The translations under genes and the position numbers were made by a program. Source: Myxococcaceae bacterium (lineage in GTDB: Bacteria; Myxococcota; Myxococcia; Myxococcales; Myxococcaceae). From it: a DNA stretch of 33,641 nucleotides. The notes under the pieces were generated by a model. It saw only the letters and a program-made list of their open reading frames with translations. It was not told the origin of the DNA and did not search any database. Positions 9,109-15,446 of the stretch are shown in pieces. The stretch lies in NCBI GenBank assembly GCA_019694575.1, contig JAIBBR010000052.1:1-33641 (forward strand), given 5' to 3'. Positions within the stretch are counted from its first letter, which is position 1, and each line of letters begins with the position of its first letter.

Positions 9109-11139
9109 TCACGGCTCGGGAGGCGCCTTCGCATTTTTGAGCCGATTTTTCAAAGAAGCGAAGAAATCCAATTCTTTAGCTGATGGCGGCCCCAAAGGAG
9201 GCTGGGTGAGATCTTGCAGCTCAATCAATTCTTCCGGCAGATCGGCCAGGTAACGTGAAGGCGTGCGCGGCACCGGCTTGCCCCGCTTTACCCGGGTTGC
9301 GGCGCGGGTGAGCACCAATTTCTGCCGAGCGCGGGTCATGCCCACGTACGCCAGGCGGCGTTCTTCTTCTAAATTCGGCGGTTCGCCCTGCATGCCTGAA
9401 TGCGGCAGCAAGTCTTCTTCCATGCCCACCAGAAACACCAGCCGCCACTCGAGCCCTTTGGCGCCGTGCAACGTCACCAGGGTGACGCAGTTTTTTTGCA
9501 GCCCCTCTTCTTCTTCGCGGGTGTCGAGCGAGAGCGTGTTCAAATAGGTCCACAACGAGGCGCGGTGGCCCTCGCGACCCTCAAAAGTCTCGAGTGACTG
9601 CAGCACTTGCTCGATGAGACGCACTTTGCGATCAGCCACCGTGGCTGACGCGTTCGACGCACGCGCCGCCTGCACGAAATCGACTTCTTCGAGCAGCGCC
9701 CGGGTGGCTTGCGACAAATTGCCTTTCGAAAAAACTTCGCGGTATTTGGTGATCAACGCACAGAAAGCGTCGACCCGCTCAGCCGCGCCGGGCGGCAGGC
9801 CAGGCACTTCTTTCGCGTGGAGCAACGTTTCCCACAGCGGCTTTCCCGCCGTGCTCGCGGCTTGGCTCAAATGCGCGAGCGTCACATCGCCGATACCGCG
9901 CGCCGGCACATTGACAATGCGCAACAGCGACACGTCGTCACGCGCGTTAGAGATCACTTTGAAGTACGCGATGACGTCTTTGATCTCGCGGCGATCAAAA
10001 AATTCGGTGCCACCAATGACCTGGTAGCCGATATCGCGGGCGCGCAGCGCTTCTTCGAAGGGCCTCGACTGACCGTTGGTGCGGTAAAGAATCGCAATTT
10101 CGTCGCGGGGCAGGCCTTCGGCGGTGGCTTTGTCGATTTCCTTGGCCACGTAGCGCGCTTCTTCGTCATCGTCGGGCGCGACGACGATTGAAATGCTGCG
10201 GCCTTCTCCCTCATCGGTCCACATGCGCTTGGCTTTGCGCTCGGGGTTTTTGTCGATCACCGCGTTGGCGGCATTGAGAATCGCTCCGGTCGAGCGGTAA
10301 TTCTGCTCGAGCCGAACCTCTTTCGCGCTGGGGTAATGCTTGTCAAACTGCAAAATGTTGCGCACCTCGGCGCCGCGCCAGCTGTAGATGCACTGATCAT
10401 CGTCGCCCACCACACACAAGTTGCCGTCGTCGGGCACCAGGTTTTTCAGCAACTGCATCTGCGCGTGGTTGGTGTCTTGGTACTCATCGACCATCACATG
10501 GGTGAAACGGTCTCGATATTCTTGCCGCAGTTCGGGGTGCTTCTCGAAGAGCGTCGACGGGTAAACGATTAAGTCGTCAAAGTCGACCACCCCCAGCGCC
10601 TTGAGCGAGAGCTGATAAAGGGGGAACACCAGGTGGCTGATCAGATCGTAGTCGTCTCCCATGCCCTCTGGTTTGGGCTGCGGCTCGACGCCCGAGTTCT
10701 TGGCGCGCGAAATGAGCGTCAGCACTTTTCGGGCGTCGAAAGCACGGTCGTCGATGCTGCGTTCACGCATCGCGCGCTTCACGATCGAAAGCTGATCGCC
10801 CATGTCGGCAATCGCGAATTTCTTCGGGTAGCCGAGCAGGTGTATGTGCTCGCGCAACACTTCGGCGCCAAACGCGTGAAAGGTGCACAGCGTGACGCCG
10901 TTGGCCTTTTTGCCGACCATCTTCTTCACGCGCTCGCGCATTTCAGAGGCGGCCTTGTTGGTGAAGGTGACCGCCAAAATCGAGTGCGGTTTCACCTTCT
11001 TTTTCTGCAACAGGTAGACGATGCGGTGGGTGATGACGCGCGTCTTGCCCGAACCGGCGCCGGCCAGCACCAGGAGCGGGCCTTCAGTCGTTACCACCGC
11101 TTCACGTTGCGGCGCGTTGAGTTTGTCCAGCTCTTGCAC
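9109..11139 (-). CDS. rep: ATP-dependent DNA helicase, Rep/UvrD family (SF1)
   Basis: A 676-residue 3'-to-5' superfamily 1 helicase that unwinds DNA or clears proteins from it during replication and repair. All motifs are intact: Walker A LAGAGSGKT (about 25-33), AVTFTNKAASEMRERV, DEYQDT (218-223), GDDDQCIYSWRGA (245-257), QNYRST (279-284), VTLHGAKGLEWRLVFLVGMEE and EERRLAYVGMTRARQKL. The length and the IGGTEFFDRREIKDVIAYFKVI segment fit Rep better than UvrD or PcrA, and the extended C-terminal domain of PcrA is missing. The start is GTG at 11139 with a GAGG 12 bases upstream. It is divergent from the cysteine-ladder gene. Assignment to the helicase family is certain; the exact subfamily name less so. 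Confidence 0.93.
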   Translation of the reverse strand: MQELDKLNAPQREAVVTTEGPLLVLAGAGSGKTRVITHRIVYLLQKKKVKPHSILAVTFTNKAASEMRERVKKMVGKKANGVTLCTFHAFGAEVLREHIHLLGYPKKFAIADMGDQLSIVKRAMRERSIDDRAFDARKVLTLISRAKNSGVEPQPKPEGMGDDYDLISHLVFPLYQLSLKALGVVDFDDLIVYPSTLFEKHPELRQEYRDRFTHVMVDEYQDTNHAQMQLLKNLVPDDGNLCVVGDDDQCIYSWRGAEVRNILQFDKHYPSAKEVRLEQNYRSTGAILNAANAVIDKNPERKAKRMWTDEGEGRSISIVVAPDDDEEARYVAKEIDKATAEGLPRDEIAILYRTNGQSRPFEEALRARDIGYQVIGGTEFFDRREIKDVIAYFKVISNARDDVSLLRIVNVPARGIGDVTLAHLSQAASTAGKPLWETLLHAKEVPGLPPGAAERVDAFCALITKYREVFSKGNLSQATRALLEEVDFVQAARASNASATVADRKVRLIEQVLQSLETFEGREGHRASLWTYLNTLSLDTREEEEGLQKNCVTLVTLHGAKGLEWRLVFLVGMEEDLLPHSGMQGEPPNLEEERRLAYVGMTRARQKLVLTRAATRVKRGKPVPRTPSRYLADLPEELIELQDLTQPPLGPPSAKELDFFASLKNRLKNAKAPPEP

Positions 11140-11221: not shown

Positions 11222-11710
11222 GTGGCCAAAGAGACGCGGAAGACGACGACCATCGACCCTGCCGAGGCCCGCGCGCTGATCGCCAAGGCAGACAAGCGCA
11301 TGTTCATGGAAGAGCTGAACCGGCTCGCCCATGGCTTCACCGCTGACGCCGGCAACCCCGGCAGCTACGCGTGCAAAGAATGCTTGCGCTGCGCCAACTG
11401 CATGTTCTGCAACGCGTGCGTCAGCTGCTACACCTGCACGCACTGCACCCGTTGTGAGCTGTGCAACAATTGCTCGCATTGCGTTGAATCGAAGCAGCTG
11501 CACGGGTGCGCTTACTGCATGCAATCAGAAAACTGCACCAACAGCGCGTATCTGGTGCTCTGCCGAAACTTGTCAGACTGCACGTATTGCTTCGGTTGCG
11601 TTGGGCTAACAAAGAAAGACTTCTACATTTTGAACGTGCCCTTCAACCGACAAGAATATTTCATCGTGATCAGCAAGCTGCGCAAAGAGCTGGGGCTGCC
11701 GAAGCAGTAA
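11222..11710 (+). CDS. Cysteine-ladder protein of unknown function
   Basis: A 162-residue protein with 20 cysteines. Thirteen fall exactly every third residue from 51 to 87 (a run of CxxC steps); the others are at 96, 99, 105, 114, 120, 123 and 126, all in the same register. Between 51 and 129 every third position is Cys, Ser or Leu. A charged helical N-terminus (1-45) precedes this, and a C-terminal block (FYILNVPFNRQEYFIVISKL) follows. No signal peptide is seen, so it is probably cytoplasmic. The GTG start has AAGG five bases upstream after a stop-free 82-base divergent gap to the helicase. I recall similar C-terminal blocks in uncharacterised Cys-rich bacterial proteins sometimes labelled CaiB/BaiF, but nothing here resembles a CoA transferase. 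Metal or Fe-S binding, or a disulfide-stapled solenoid, are possible. Confidence 0.85.
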   Translation: MAKETRKTTTIDPAEARALIAKADKRMFMEELNRLAHGFTADAGNPGSYACKECLRCANCMFCNACVSCYTCTHCTRCELCNNCSHCVESKQLHGCAYCMQSENCTNSAYLVLCRNLSDCTYCFGCVGLTKKDFYILNVPFNRQEYFIVISKLRKELGLPKQ

Positions 11711-11716
11711 GCCACG

Positions 11717-12889
11717 TCACAGCGCACGCACGAACCACGCCTTCAAGTATTCCGTCTGTGGCAAGCCGAGGAGCGGTGGATGATCGATGCCCGCACCTCG
11801 CCGCTCCAGCACTTGCAATGAGCGCTTCGCGTCTTTCGCCGCTCCGAGAATCATCTCTTCGAATGCTTGCCGCGTCAGCTTGCCTGAACAAGAGCAGCTC
11901 ACCAGCAACCCTTCAGGCTTGAGCAGCTTCAACGCCCGCAAATTGAGCTCGTGGTACGCGCGCATCGCGGTTTTGAGGCCCTCTTTGCGCTTGGCGAGAC
12001 CAGGCGGATCAATCACCACTGTGTCGAACTGCCGCCCTTCTCGCTCGTAATTGCGCAGCACGTCGAAGGCATTGCCGCATTCTACAGTGACATTGCTGCG
12101 GCCGTTTTCGGCCACTGCCGTTTTGATGCGCCCTGCCGCGGTCTCGTCTTGTTCAACCGCGTGCACGCTCACGCACGAACGGCTCAAGGCCAGGGCAAAA
12201 CCGCCGTGGTAGCTGAAAAGATCGAGCGCCGTTCCGCTCGCCAGCTCACCGGCACGCAGGTGGTTGTCGACTTGATCTAAAAAAGAACCGGTCTTGGCGT
12301 CTGCCATCACGTCGATCACGAAACGGTTTTCACCTTCGTGGTAACCGACCAAACCCGGCGCGGCACCCACCAGCACCTTCTTTTCGCGCGGGAGCCCTTC
12401 GAAATCGCGGCCTGAGCCATCATCGCGGCACACCACCGTGGCGCAGCCTGAAATTTTCACCAGTGCCGCGGCGAGCATTTCTTTGCGCGCGTCGAGCCCT
12501 TCGGACAGCGTCTGCAGCACGAGCACCGAGCCGTAACGATCAACAAAAAGCCCCGGCAGTAAGTCAGCCTCACCATGCACCACCCGAAAAGCATCGCGCG
12601 GGTGCAACGTTCGGCGGCGCTCCCACGCACGCTCCAACCGGCGAACGAAGAACGCGTCATCAATTCGCTCTTCTTGGGCCCGGGCTCGCGTCAACAACCG
12701 TAAGGCAATCGGAGAAGTGCGCGCGTACAACGCTTGCCCGATGAAATTTTTCTGCTTGTCGAGCACGTCGACCACCGCGCTCTTCGGAGCCTCGCTCACC
12801 ACGTCGAGCAACTCAGTTCGGTAGCACCACGGCTCGCCGCTGCGCAAACCTTTGGCGCCCTTCTCGCTGACCCGAATGGCCGTCGTCAT
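11717..12889 (-). CDS. rlmI: Class I SAM-dependent rRNA methyltransferase, RlmI-like
   Basis: A 390-residue enzyme of the RlmI/YccW family; RlmI makes m5C1962 in 23S rRNA. An N-terminal PUA-like domain (RVSEKGAKGLRSGEPWCYRTEL) is followed by a linker with FRVVHGEADLLPGLFVDRYG. The Rossmann methyltransferase has SAM motif I ALDLFSYHGGFALA, VVIDPPGLAKRK and the cysteine-bearing LLVSCSCSG. The end HPPLLGLPQTEYLKAWFVRAL is typical. The start ATG overlaps the stop of the upstream TPR-zincin gene as ATGA. It converges with the cysteine-ladder gene across six bases. The methylation site is inferred by family, and a paralogue with another target base is possible. Confidence 0.88.
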   Translation of the reverse strand: MTTAIRVSEKGAKGLRSGEPWCYRTELLDVVSEAPKSAVVDVLDKQKNFIGQALYARTSPIALRLLTRARAQEERIDDAFFVRRLERAWERRRTLHPRDAFRVVHGEADLLPGLFVDRYGSVLVLQTLSEGLDARKEMLAAALVKISGCATVVCRDDGSGRDFEGLPREKKVLVGAAPGLVGYHEGENRFVIDVMADAKTGSFLDQVDNHLRAGELASGTALDLFSYHGGFALALSRSCVSVHAVEQDETAAGRIKTAVAENGRSNVTVECGNAFDVLRNYEREGRQFDTVVIDPPGLAKRKEGLKTAMRAYHELNLRALKLLKPEGLLVSCSCSGKLTRQAFEEMILGAAKDAKRSLQVLERRGAGIDHPPLLGLPQTEYLKAWFVRAL

Positions 12890-14142
12890 TCGAGCCCGCG
12901 CGCCGCCAGTTCGTCATCGCCTTCGCCCCGCAAATGCCCCGCTTCATGCAGCAGCGTGACGCGAATTTGCTCGAGCAGCTCATCGCGCGTTTTCACCGCC
13001 CGCGCCAAGTTGCGCCGGTAGAGCACCACCGAGCGGCAGGGGCCGGTGCTGGCCATGTCGTCACCCGGCTCGGTATCGCAACGCTCGCTCAGCGGCGGCC
13101 CGCGAAAGAGCCCCAAAATGGTCGGCGACAACGGCGGGTCTCCCGCGGTCAAATCAGCCAGCGACGGCAAGTCTTCGGTCGCAATGGGCACGCCTTTCAA
13201 GTCATGCTGAATGTCGGTCGGCAGCGCCGCCACCGCTGCGTTCACTTCGGCGCGAAACGCTTCGGCCGTCAACAACACCGGCTCGGGAAAGTCAGACGGA
13301 GACAACGCACGGGCCGCCGCGAAATGTTTGTCAGCCTGCGTTTGCTTGTTTTCACGCTCTAGCAACAGGCCCAAATGGTGGTGTACGTGCGCTCTCTTTT
13401 CAGGGTCTTTCAGCAGCGAAGAGAATTCTGCTTTCGCTTCGGTCATGCGGCACAGCTCGAAGAGCGCGAGCGCGCGTTCGTAACGAGCATCGGCATCGCG
13501 GGGCTCTTTCGAGAGCACGAAATCGGCCCGGTCTAACGCGTCGTACGCTTGGCCCAAATCGTTGAACGCCATCGCCGACAAGCGGCCAAACTGCAGCATC
13601 ACCTCGAGATCGTTTGAAGCGCGTGAAAGGTCTAACCCACGCTCGGCATACGCCGAAGCCAGCTCGTCATTTTCTCGGCTCGAAGGCAGCGCCACGCCGT
13701 ACAAGTGGGCGGCTCCCAGCAAAGCGTCGAGCGATTCAGGGTCAACCGCCAGCGCCCGCGCGAAAGCGAGCCGCGCCTCTTCCCACCGACCGAGCGCCTC
13801 CAGCGCATTGCCGCGCTCGGTATGCGCCAACACGTCATGCGGGGTCAACGCCGACGCTTGGGCGGCACAGGCCAGCGCATTTTCATAGTCATGCTGGTCA
13901 AAATAGTCGCGCGCGGCGTCGAGCGGCAGCTTGCCGTTGGGTCGGCACACCGTGAGAGGAACAGCCTTGCCTGCCGCGGCCGCCACGTCTCGCAAGCTCA
14001 TCACTGCTGGGGCGTGCACTTGGGCAACCGCTTCGACGGGCTCGAGAGCCGGCTCTGCGGGGGGCAGCTGTGCCTTCTGGCAGCCGAACCACGCCACGCT
14101 CGCGCCAATCAACAACACACGCTTATGAGCGCGAACGGCCAT
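12886..14142 (-). CDS. TPR protein with C-terminal minimal zincin metallopeptidase domain
   Basis: A 418-residue protein. The leader MAVRAHKRVLLIGASVAWFGC suggests export, and Cys21 sits in a poor lipobox (WFGC), so it may be a lipoprotein. Residues about 75-280 are TPR units such as AHTERGNALEALGRWEEARLAF. The C-terminal 110 residues match the minimal zincin family PF06262: ILGLFRGPPLSERC, then HEAGHLRGEGDDE with HExxH at 399-403. The zinc site is intact. ATG 14142 is preceded by TAAGG nine bases away; longer upstream sequence is not protein-like. It is 23 bases after clpX and overlaps rlmI. Substrate unknown. Confidence 0.82.
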   Translation of the reverse strand: MAVRAHKRVLLIGASVAWFGCQKAQLPPAEPALEPVEAVAQVHAPAVMSLRDVAAAAGKAVPLTVCRPNGKLPLDAARDYFDQHDYENALACAAQASALTPHDVLAHTERGNALEALGRWEEARLAFARALAVDPESLDALLGAAHLYGVALPSSRENDELASAYAERGLDLSRASNDLEVMLQFGRLSAMAFNDLGQAYDALDRADFVLSKEPRDADARYERALALFELCRMTEAKAEFSSLLKDPEKRAHVHHHLGLLLERENKQTQADKHFAAARALSPSDFPEPVLLTAEAFRAEVNAAVAALPTDIQHDLKGVPIATEDLPSLADLTAGDPPLSPTILGLFRGPPLSERCDTEPGDDMASTGPCRSVVLYRRNLARAVKTRDELLEQIRVTLLHEAGHLRGEGDDELAARGLE

Positions 14143-14165
14143 GCACGAGAACCTTAGCGTAAAGG

Positions 14166-15446
14166 CTAGGCGGTCTTCTTTTCCTTCTCGAAGATCAACG
14201 CTGGCGCCTCTTTGCGCGCGATGACACCCTCGGAAATGCGGCATTCCTTGATGCCTTCGCGGTAAGGCACGTCGTACATGATGTCTAACATCGCGTCTTC
14301 GAGAATGGCGCGTAGACCGCGCGCTCCCGAGTGCCGGCGCATCGCCTCTTTCGAAATTGCGCGCAGCGCCTCTTTCGAGAAAGTCAGCTTCACTTTTTCC
14401 ATCTCGAACATCTTTTGGTACTGCTTGATGAGGGCGTTCTTGGGTTGAGTGAGAATCGTCATCAGATCCTCCTCGTTCAAATCGTTCAGCGTGGCGATCA
14501 CCGGCAAACGGCCGATGAATTCGGGAATCATGCCGAACTTCATCAAGTCTTCAGGTTCAGCCAACCGGAGCAGCTCACCCACCGAACGCTGATCTTTATG
14601 GGTGATGCGCGCGCCGAAACCCAACCCCTTCTCACCCACCCGGCGTTTAATCACCCCATCGATGCCGTGAAACGCGCCACCGCAAATGAAGAGAATGTTC
14701 GAGGTGTCGACCTGAATGTATTCTTGCTGGTTGTACTTTTTGCCGCCGCGGGGCGTGACATTGGCGCGGGTGCCTTCGACAATCTTGAGCAGCGCCTGCT
14801 GCACGCCTTCACCCCCGACATCGCGCGTCACTGACGGGCTGTCACCCTTGCGGGCAATTTTGTCGATTTCGTCGATGTAAACGATGCCGCGTGAAGCTTT
14901 CTCGACGTCGTAGTCAGCCGAGTGCAGCAAGTTCTGAATGATGTTCTCGACGTCTTCACCCACGTAGCCAGCCTCGGTCAGGCTGGTGGCATCGGCGATG
15001 GTGAAGGGCACATTTAAGAAGCGGGCCAACGACTGCGCGAGCAGTGTCTTGCCTGAACCGGTGGGCCCAATCAGCAAGATGTTCGACTTCGAAAGCTCGA
15101 CTTCTTCGGTGCCGGGCGCCTTTACCCCCGGGCGCGGCCGCGTGGGCGACTTCTTTTGGTAGATGCGCTTGTAGTGGTTGTAGACAGCCACCGAGAGCAC
15201 GCGTTTGGCGAAGTCTTGGCCCACCACGTAGTCATCTAAGAAGGTCTTGATGTCGAGCGGCGTGGGCAGCGACACCTGAGGCTTGCTGTCTTCGCGCTCA
15301 TTCTCTTCAGCAATGATGTCGTTGCACAGCTTGATGCATTCATCGCAAATGTAGACCGTGGGCCCAGCGATCAACTTGCGCACTTCGCGCTGCGATTTAC
15401 CGCAGAACGAGCACGACAAATTTACGTGTTGGTCGCCTTTCTTCAC
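14166..15446 (-). CDS. clpX: ATP-dependent protease ATP-binding subunit / unfoldase ClpX
   Basis: AAA+ hexamer that unfolds tagged proteins and feeds ClpP. A zinc-binding domain (Cys12, 15, 34, 37) comes first. Walker A GPTGSGKT (about 127-134), the pore loop GYVG (160-163), Walker B IVYIDE (188-193), a ClpP-docking LGF (275-277) and the sensor-2 GARGLR region follow. The loop that is RKH in E. coli reads KKY here (about 236-238). I chose GTG 15446 because GGAG lies eight bases upstream; GTG 15455 has no such site. Neither clpP nor tig or lon is adjacent, unlike the usual arrangement. It lies upstream of the TPR-zincin gene and probably shares its transcript. Confidence 0.95.

Follow-up and report, generated by a model that had tools for sequence, protein, structure and literature searches.

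The described protein closest in geometry to the one reported here is the beetle antifreeze protein. In it every third residue points inward, each coil takes up 12 residues, the inward ladder reads C/S/C/A and a cross-coil disulfide joins inward positions 6 residues apart (PMC8038014). Cys-Xaa-Xaa repeats are also known from the precursors of heterocycloanthracin-type bacteriocins, whose modifying enzymes may be encoded at unlinked loci (PMC2674419). The window, that is, the whole stretch of 33,641 nucleotides which was analysed, encodes a small protein with a strikingly regular cysteine pattern (the Cys-ladder protein). The preliminary description of this DNA had stated that no described function was known for such a pattern. 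This was overstated, as like patterns occur in both of the groups above.

The Cys-ladder protein appears to share with the beetle protein TmAFP (1EZG; PF02420) the 12-residue coil, the inward orientation of every third residue and a Cys/Ser core. Unlike in TmAFP, Cys may stand at each of the four inward positions, an aromatic/His column stands where TmAFP has its TxT (TCT) ice-binding array, and a helical cap and a conserved cap accompany a fixed number of coils with no apparent signal peptide. The C1-C7 cross-coil pairing is also unsupported by the co-change test, which is an indirect one. With other bacterial beta-solenoids, including the pentapeptide-repeat proteins, the protein would have a narrow beta-solenoid in common, but its period is 3/12 instead of 5, and neither a pentapeptide Pfam match nor a close PDB match in Foldseek was found. 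It resembles the heterocycloanthracin-type precursors (TIGR03601) in its Cys-Xaa-Xaa repeats and differs from them in showing no YcaO dependence, no variation in repeat number and no family match, and in having conserved caps.

Long CxxCxxC ladders also occur in proteins of Campylobacter and Vibrio phages and of a Campylobacter fetus plasmid (L071:1998-2369, L073:1504-1929, L074:1372-1746, L077:934-1485 and L076). These are annotated as hypothetical or, in the case of Vibrio phage 1.238, as "insect antifreeze protein". In phages CP220 and IBB_35 the ladder gene is flanked by the portal gene and the DNA ligase gene. The profile of the phage family PHROG 15341 matches residues 50-126 of the window protein with an E-value of 2.9e-7, a score which the Cys-rich composition may inflate. 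The predicted structure of H6SUK4 from Campylobacter virus IBB35 (BFVD) also matches (Foldseek E 6.8e-6). Its name, "Caib/baif family protein", denotes CoA-transferases, is ill-suited to a Cys ladder and is probably a transferred mis-annotation. Unlike the myxobacterial protein, the phage ladder proteins that were read vary in length and lack the full DCTYCFGCVGL...ILN C-terminal signature. The CP220 protein ends in DDCFGCYGILKQ, a partial likeness to it, and the other phage proteins read are without it.

The cysteine register and a probable twelve-residue coil

All 20 cysteines of the protein fall into a single register, at positions 51, 54, 57, 60, 63, 66, 69, 72, 75, 78, 81, 84, 87, 96, 99, 105, 114, 120, 123 and 126 (20/20 at 0 mod 3). 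The other register positions within 51-129 are S90, L93, S102, S108, L111, L117 and L129. When the 162-residue sequence was shuffled 20,000 times and scored for the largest number of cysteines sharing one register, the best result was 16 of 20, reached by one shuffle, and a typical shuffle gave 7-10. The direct count and the shuffles bear out the single period-3 register with 13 consecutive cysteines (51-87) reported in the preliminary description, and a check position by position agreed with its statement that register positions 51-129 are solely Cys, Ser or Leu. The span it gave, 11372-11608, corresponds to codons 51-129. The features of the locus are collected in Table 1.

Table 1. Features of the Cys-ladder locus in window coordinates
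Feature	Position	Strand	Basis
UvrD/Rep-family helicase gene, divergent, 82 bp away	9109..11139	-	Pfam PF00580/PF13361; synteny
Cys-ladder gene	11222..11710	+	ORF, GTG start, TAA stop, 162 aa; start conserved in relatives
N-terminal helical cap, residues 13-40 (predicted helices 13-22, 25-40)	11258..11341	+	AlphaFold2, pLDDT about 80
Ladder, register 51-129 (Cys/Ser/Leu), read as inward solenoid column	11372..11608	+	Sequence; alignment of 148 relatives
Seven putative 12-residue coils: 51-62, 63-74, 75-86, 87-98, 99-110, 111-122, 123-134	11372..11623	+	Aromatic period; co-change peak; AlphaFold2 strands
C-terminal signature, residues 119-147	11576..11662	+	Alignment of 148 relatives; also in L075
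PUA-domain RNA methyltransferase gene (RlmI-like), convergent	11717..12889	-	Pfam PF17785; synteny
TPR protein with zincin-like metallopeptidase domain	12886..14244	-	PF06262; overlaps the RlmI-like gene start by a few bases

The register holds 2878 of the cysteines counted in 148 distinct relatives (effective number about 94); a further 6 lie off it. Absence of the register from close homologues had been named in advance as evidence that would count against the pattern; the register is retained in all relatives. Its residues are overall 72% C, 16% S and 7% L, the remainder being V, T or A. At coil positions 4 and 10 the usual substitute for Cys is S; at coil position 7 it is L. The total number of cysteines in register 51-126 ranges from 13 to 23, and both the count per coil and the longest uninterrupted run (3-17) vary widely.

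The three-residue register hides a longer period. Broken into rows of 12 residues beginning at residue 51, the window protein reads CKECLRCANCMF / CNACVSCYTCTH / CTRCELCNNCSH / CVESKQLHGCAY in the first four rows and CMQSENCTNSAY / LVLCRNLSDCTY / CFGCVGLTKKDF in the last three. Each row ends in an aromatic residue or His (F62, H74, H86, Y98, Y110, Y122 and F134), and coils 1-3 each hold four register cysteines, read as inward. Across the 148 relatives coil position 12 is F, Y, W or H in 94% of cases; at any other coil position the share is at most 24%. The preliminary description was right about the period of three but overlooked this aromatic/His column as well as the C-terminal signature.

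That signature, residues 119-147, is the best-conserved stretch of the protein in the 148 relatives: D-C-T-Y-C-F-G-C-V-G-L-x-K-K-D-F-[HYC]-I-L-N-x-x-[YF]-x-R-x-E-Y-F. The weighted frequency is 1.00 for C123, C126 and N138, 0.98 or more for G128, F134, L137 and F147, 0.96 for C120 and 0.92 for R143. Position 135 is H in 123, C in 14 and Y in 9 of the 148 sequences, the window protein having Tyr. The near invariance of this stretch suggests a functional end, and it is likely a cap or a functional end. A search of a viral collection with alignment A1 gave nothing confirmed. The same signature (FGCEGLRKKQYCILNKQYTKEEY) is present in one virus-like metagenomic contig, L075 (39% over 44 residues). 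This contig was found with a motif pattern, presumably a signature of candidate-phyla (CPR/Patescibacteria) proteins, and the FGCxGLxKK part lay outside that first pattern.

Distribution of the family and genomic context

An initial scan of bacterial genomes returned 39 related loci, nearly all in assemblies named myxobacteria or "Deltaproteobacteria". By profile search, counted from the table of results, the gene is present in 93 of the 96 genomes of the window's family. In the window's phylum the tool's tally is 130 of 195 genomes, nearly always with one match per genome; this figure includes a handful of weak, partial Cys-repeat matches (e.g. G164, G184 and G186). Partial or low-complexity Cys repeats account for the low-scoring matches in G164, G149, G184 and G186. 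Low-complexity CPRCPRC / CRRCRQC ORFs (L115, L116) also match the family profile weakly and inflate tallies at E <= 0.001. A second GTDB phylum, which includes a Polyangiaceae assembly, has matches at E <= 1e-15 in 85 of 379 genomes. Some families of the window's own order lack the gene, and the overall distribution across the two GTDB phyla of myxobacteria is patchy. The family is largely vertically kept in myxobacteria. Its length is essentially fixed, the gap fraction over residues 45-147 being 0.0002 in the alignment of 148 relatives.

A Pfam search up to E 10 returned no match for the window protein, and none was found among 32 relatives. NCBIfam and PADLOC gave no usable match, and neither Pfam nor NCBIfam returned a curated-profile match to metallothionein, ferredoxin or zinc-ribbon families. 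A literature search found no described function for the family. The family is new to the libraries searched (Pfam, NCBIfam, PADLOC), while its geometry has known precedent.

The rep and rlmI genes adjoin the Cys-ladder gene in the nearest lineage only, and the neighbours differ in other lineages. The preliminary description had already noted that these two neighbours give no answer. As neighbours vary by lineage and no partner is constant, genomic context assigns no function. Apparently conserved ORF clusters on other frames over the Cys-ladder gene were dismissed as artefactual, a product of the GC-rich sequence.

In part of the second phylum, a probably helical protein of ~200-250 aa is encoded beside the Cys-ladder gene and in the same orientation (L139:2384-3001 and about 22 other loci; alignment A3), in about 15 loci directly upstream of it. 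This protein has a conserved C-terminal domain (RLLxxLLxAEGRxxITRA...LQLLEHxDE) and no Pfam match. It was rejected as a constant partner: its relatives are found elsewhere in other genomes, also in genomes without the Cys-ladder gene.

Predicted fold and coupled changes between positions

AlphaFold2 modelling from alignment A1 yielded a beta-solenoid with a pLDDT of 92-97 in residues 51-120 and strands 12 residues apart (50-52, 62-64, 74-76 and 86-88). Two residues of the predicted N-terminal helical cap, F28 and L35, are conserved among relatives. The same architecture was obtained for L033, a relative with fewer cysteines. For perfect artificial repeats AlphaFold2 is known to predict beta-solenoids that are wrong despite high confidence (PMC11795689), and for this reason the models alone prove little; the window sequence is not a perfect repeat, however, and the co-change evidence is in line with the model. 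Foldseek searches of the models against the PDB gave no match at E <= 0.001. The two models listed 1EZG at E 0.23 and 0.38, with TM values of 0.21/0.37 and 0.17/0.22. By sequence profile, 1EZG, the beetle antifreeze protein with its 12-residue coil, is the best match in the PDB (E 0.0089). Because the models superpose poorly on 1EZG, the detailed fold is uncertain.

For the co-change test, branches with paired changes were counted on a FastTree tree for which the register columns had been left out, and the expectation was taken from simulations of independent change at matched rates. The figures come from one such tree with parsimony reconstruction and from several separations examined. At a separation of 12, register positions showed 27 co-changes against 15.8 expected (1.71x, p 0.018). 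The two outward sets each had their highest ratio at this same separation (1.42x, p 0.016, and 1.34x, p 0.08). For the presence of Cys at register positions 3 apart, 33 co-changes were counted versus 14.4 expected (p<0.001), whereas the outward controls were non-significant (1.18x and 1.12x). Cys coupling was also detected at a separation of 15, for coil positions 10 to 1. There was no excess at a separation of 6 (1.23x, p 0.25), and coil positions 1-7 had 1 co-change versus 2.3 expected. In a simpler matched-pair test without a tree the Cys coupling was non-significant.

Since Cys changes coincide 3 residues apart and the outward controls show no such effect, neighbouring thiols probably act together, by disulfide or metal. 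The 12-residue aromatic column, the co-changes 12 apart and the AlphaFold2 solenoid together indicate that the ladder lines a narrow tube, and the protein is very probably wound into a slender tube whose inside is lined by sulfur atoms. Of the two geometries proposed earlier, the inner wall of a narrow beta-solenoid is thus well supported by the 12-residue period, the co-changes 12 apart and two AlphaFold2 models, and the helix with three residues per turn is not.

Candidate explanations for the thiol core

The explanation which is preferred, at slightly better than even confidence, is that the Cys-ladder protein is a capped, rigid beta-solenoid of myxobacteria whose thiol core is paired by disulfide or metal and whose C-terminal end is presented to a partner. 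Seven 12-residue coils would turn every third residue, Cys, Ser or Leu, towards the inside, and the aromatic/His column would run along one edge of the rod. An alpha-helical cap would close the N-terminus and the nearly invariant cap the C-terminus. Inward thiols 3 apart (at adjacent corners of the tube) and 12 apart (stacked) would hold the narrow core together, most likely in CxxC pairs, either joined by a disulfide or sharing a metal such as zinc. The rod may offer its C-terminal end (C120/C123/C126, K132, D/E133, H/Y135, N138, R143 and Y146) to a partner. No signal peptide is apparent from the sequence of the 162-residue protein, and its location is probably cytosolic.

The cysteines might instead serve purely for packing, a considerably less probable explanation. 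The inside of a narrow tube calls for side chains that are small and slightly hydrophobic; the thiols would then stay reduced and take part in no chemistry, and selection would act on size only. The composition of the register, the favoured substitutes at coil positions 4, 7 and 10 and the variable cysteine total all suit this explanation, but Cys and Ser are of near-equal size and yet gains and losses of Cys at adjacent positions coincide far beyond chance. Cys is also strongly preferred over Ala, Ser and Val, and C123 and C126 are unchanged in 148 sequences. The apparent coupling of neighbouring thiols fits disulfide or metal better than packing alone. It is rather unlikely that the ladder is a metal-thiolate string, in which Zn, Cu or Fe(-S) would be bound along the tube axis by four-Cys coils or by the CxxC pairs of neighbouring coils, as a store, a sensor or an electron conduit. 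Coupling at 3, 12 and 15 is what squares of C(i), C(i+3), C(i+12) and C(i+15) would be expected to give, the four inward cysteines in each of coils 1-3 fit such sites, and position 135, which alternates between H and C, lies beside C120/C123/C126. Against this stand the widely varying cysteine counts and runs, the loss of single ladder positions while the gene persists, the Tyr at 135 in the window protein itself and the lack of a ferredoxin, metallothionein or other Pfam match. That individual cysteines are exchanged for Ser, Leu, Val or Thr speaks against a metal chain which must be unbroken; local metal sites or disulfides would be compatible with the coupling between neighbouring thiols. 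A core that is a whole column of metal-thiolate centres, each formed by four thiols per coil or by a stacked CxxC-edge pair, making the protein an encased metal string with a docking cap, is improbable.

Two further explanations can be rejected as very improbable. An antifreeze or ice-binding protein related to that of beetles would account for the shared inward-every-third pattern and 12-residue coil, for 1EZG being the best PDB profile match and for the "insect antifreeze protein" label of a phage relative. The TxT array is missing, however, F, Y, W or H precedes the position-1 Cys in 94%, and there is no Pfam match at E 10, no C1-C7 coupling and no apparent signal peptide. A thiazole/oxazole bacteriocin precursor of the heterocycloanthracin type, with Cys-Xaa-Xaa units cyclised by an unlinked YcaO, is contradicted by distribution: largely complete gene-bearing genomes have no YcaO match (e.g. 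G105, G103, G111, G140, G144, G145 and G148). The repeats and the possibly unlinked enzymes are known from such precursors (PMC2674419) and the window's genome has one YcaO gene, but this YcaO pairs with TfuA. No indels of CXX units are seen in 148 relatives, whereas such precursors vary in repeat number; the conserved non-Cys residues and C-terminal cap, and the lack of an NCBIfam match, also speak against a precursor. The YcaO-TfuA pair (PF02624, PF07812; L188:437-2769, G000:C142) is a candidate thioamidation system.

The preferred explanation, a capped solenoid with paired thiols, concerns a near-universal, single-copy gene of the window's family which keeps a strict length across two phyla and has no curated model, and which is a good candidate for a core function specific to this lineage. 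With as many as about 20 thiols arrayed regularly in a compartment that is probably reducing, the protein raises the question of a reduced ladder, a disulfide staple or a metal string. The Cys-ladder protein is a natural protein near the beetle antifreeze protein in geometry, and it is genetically testable.
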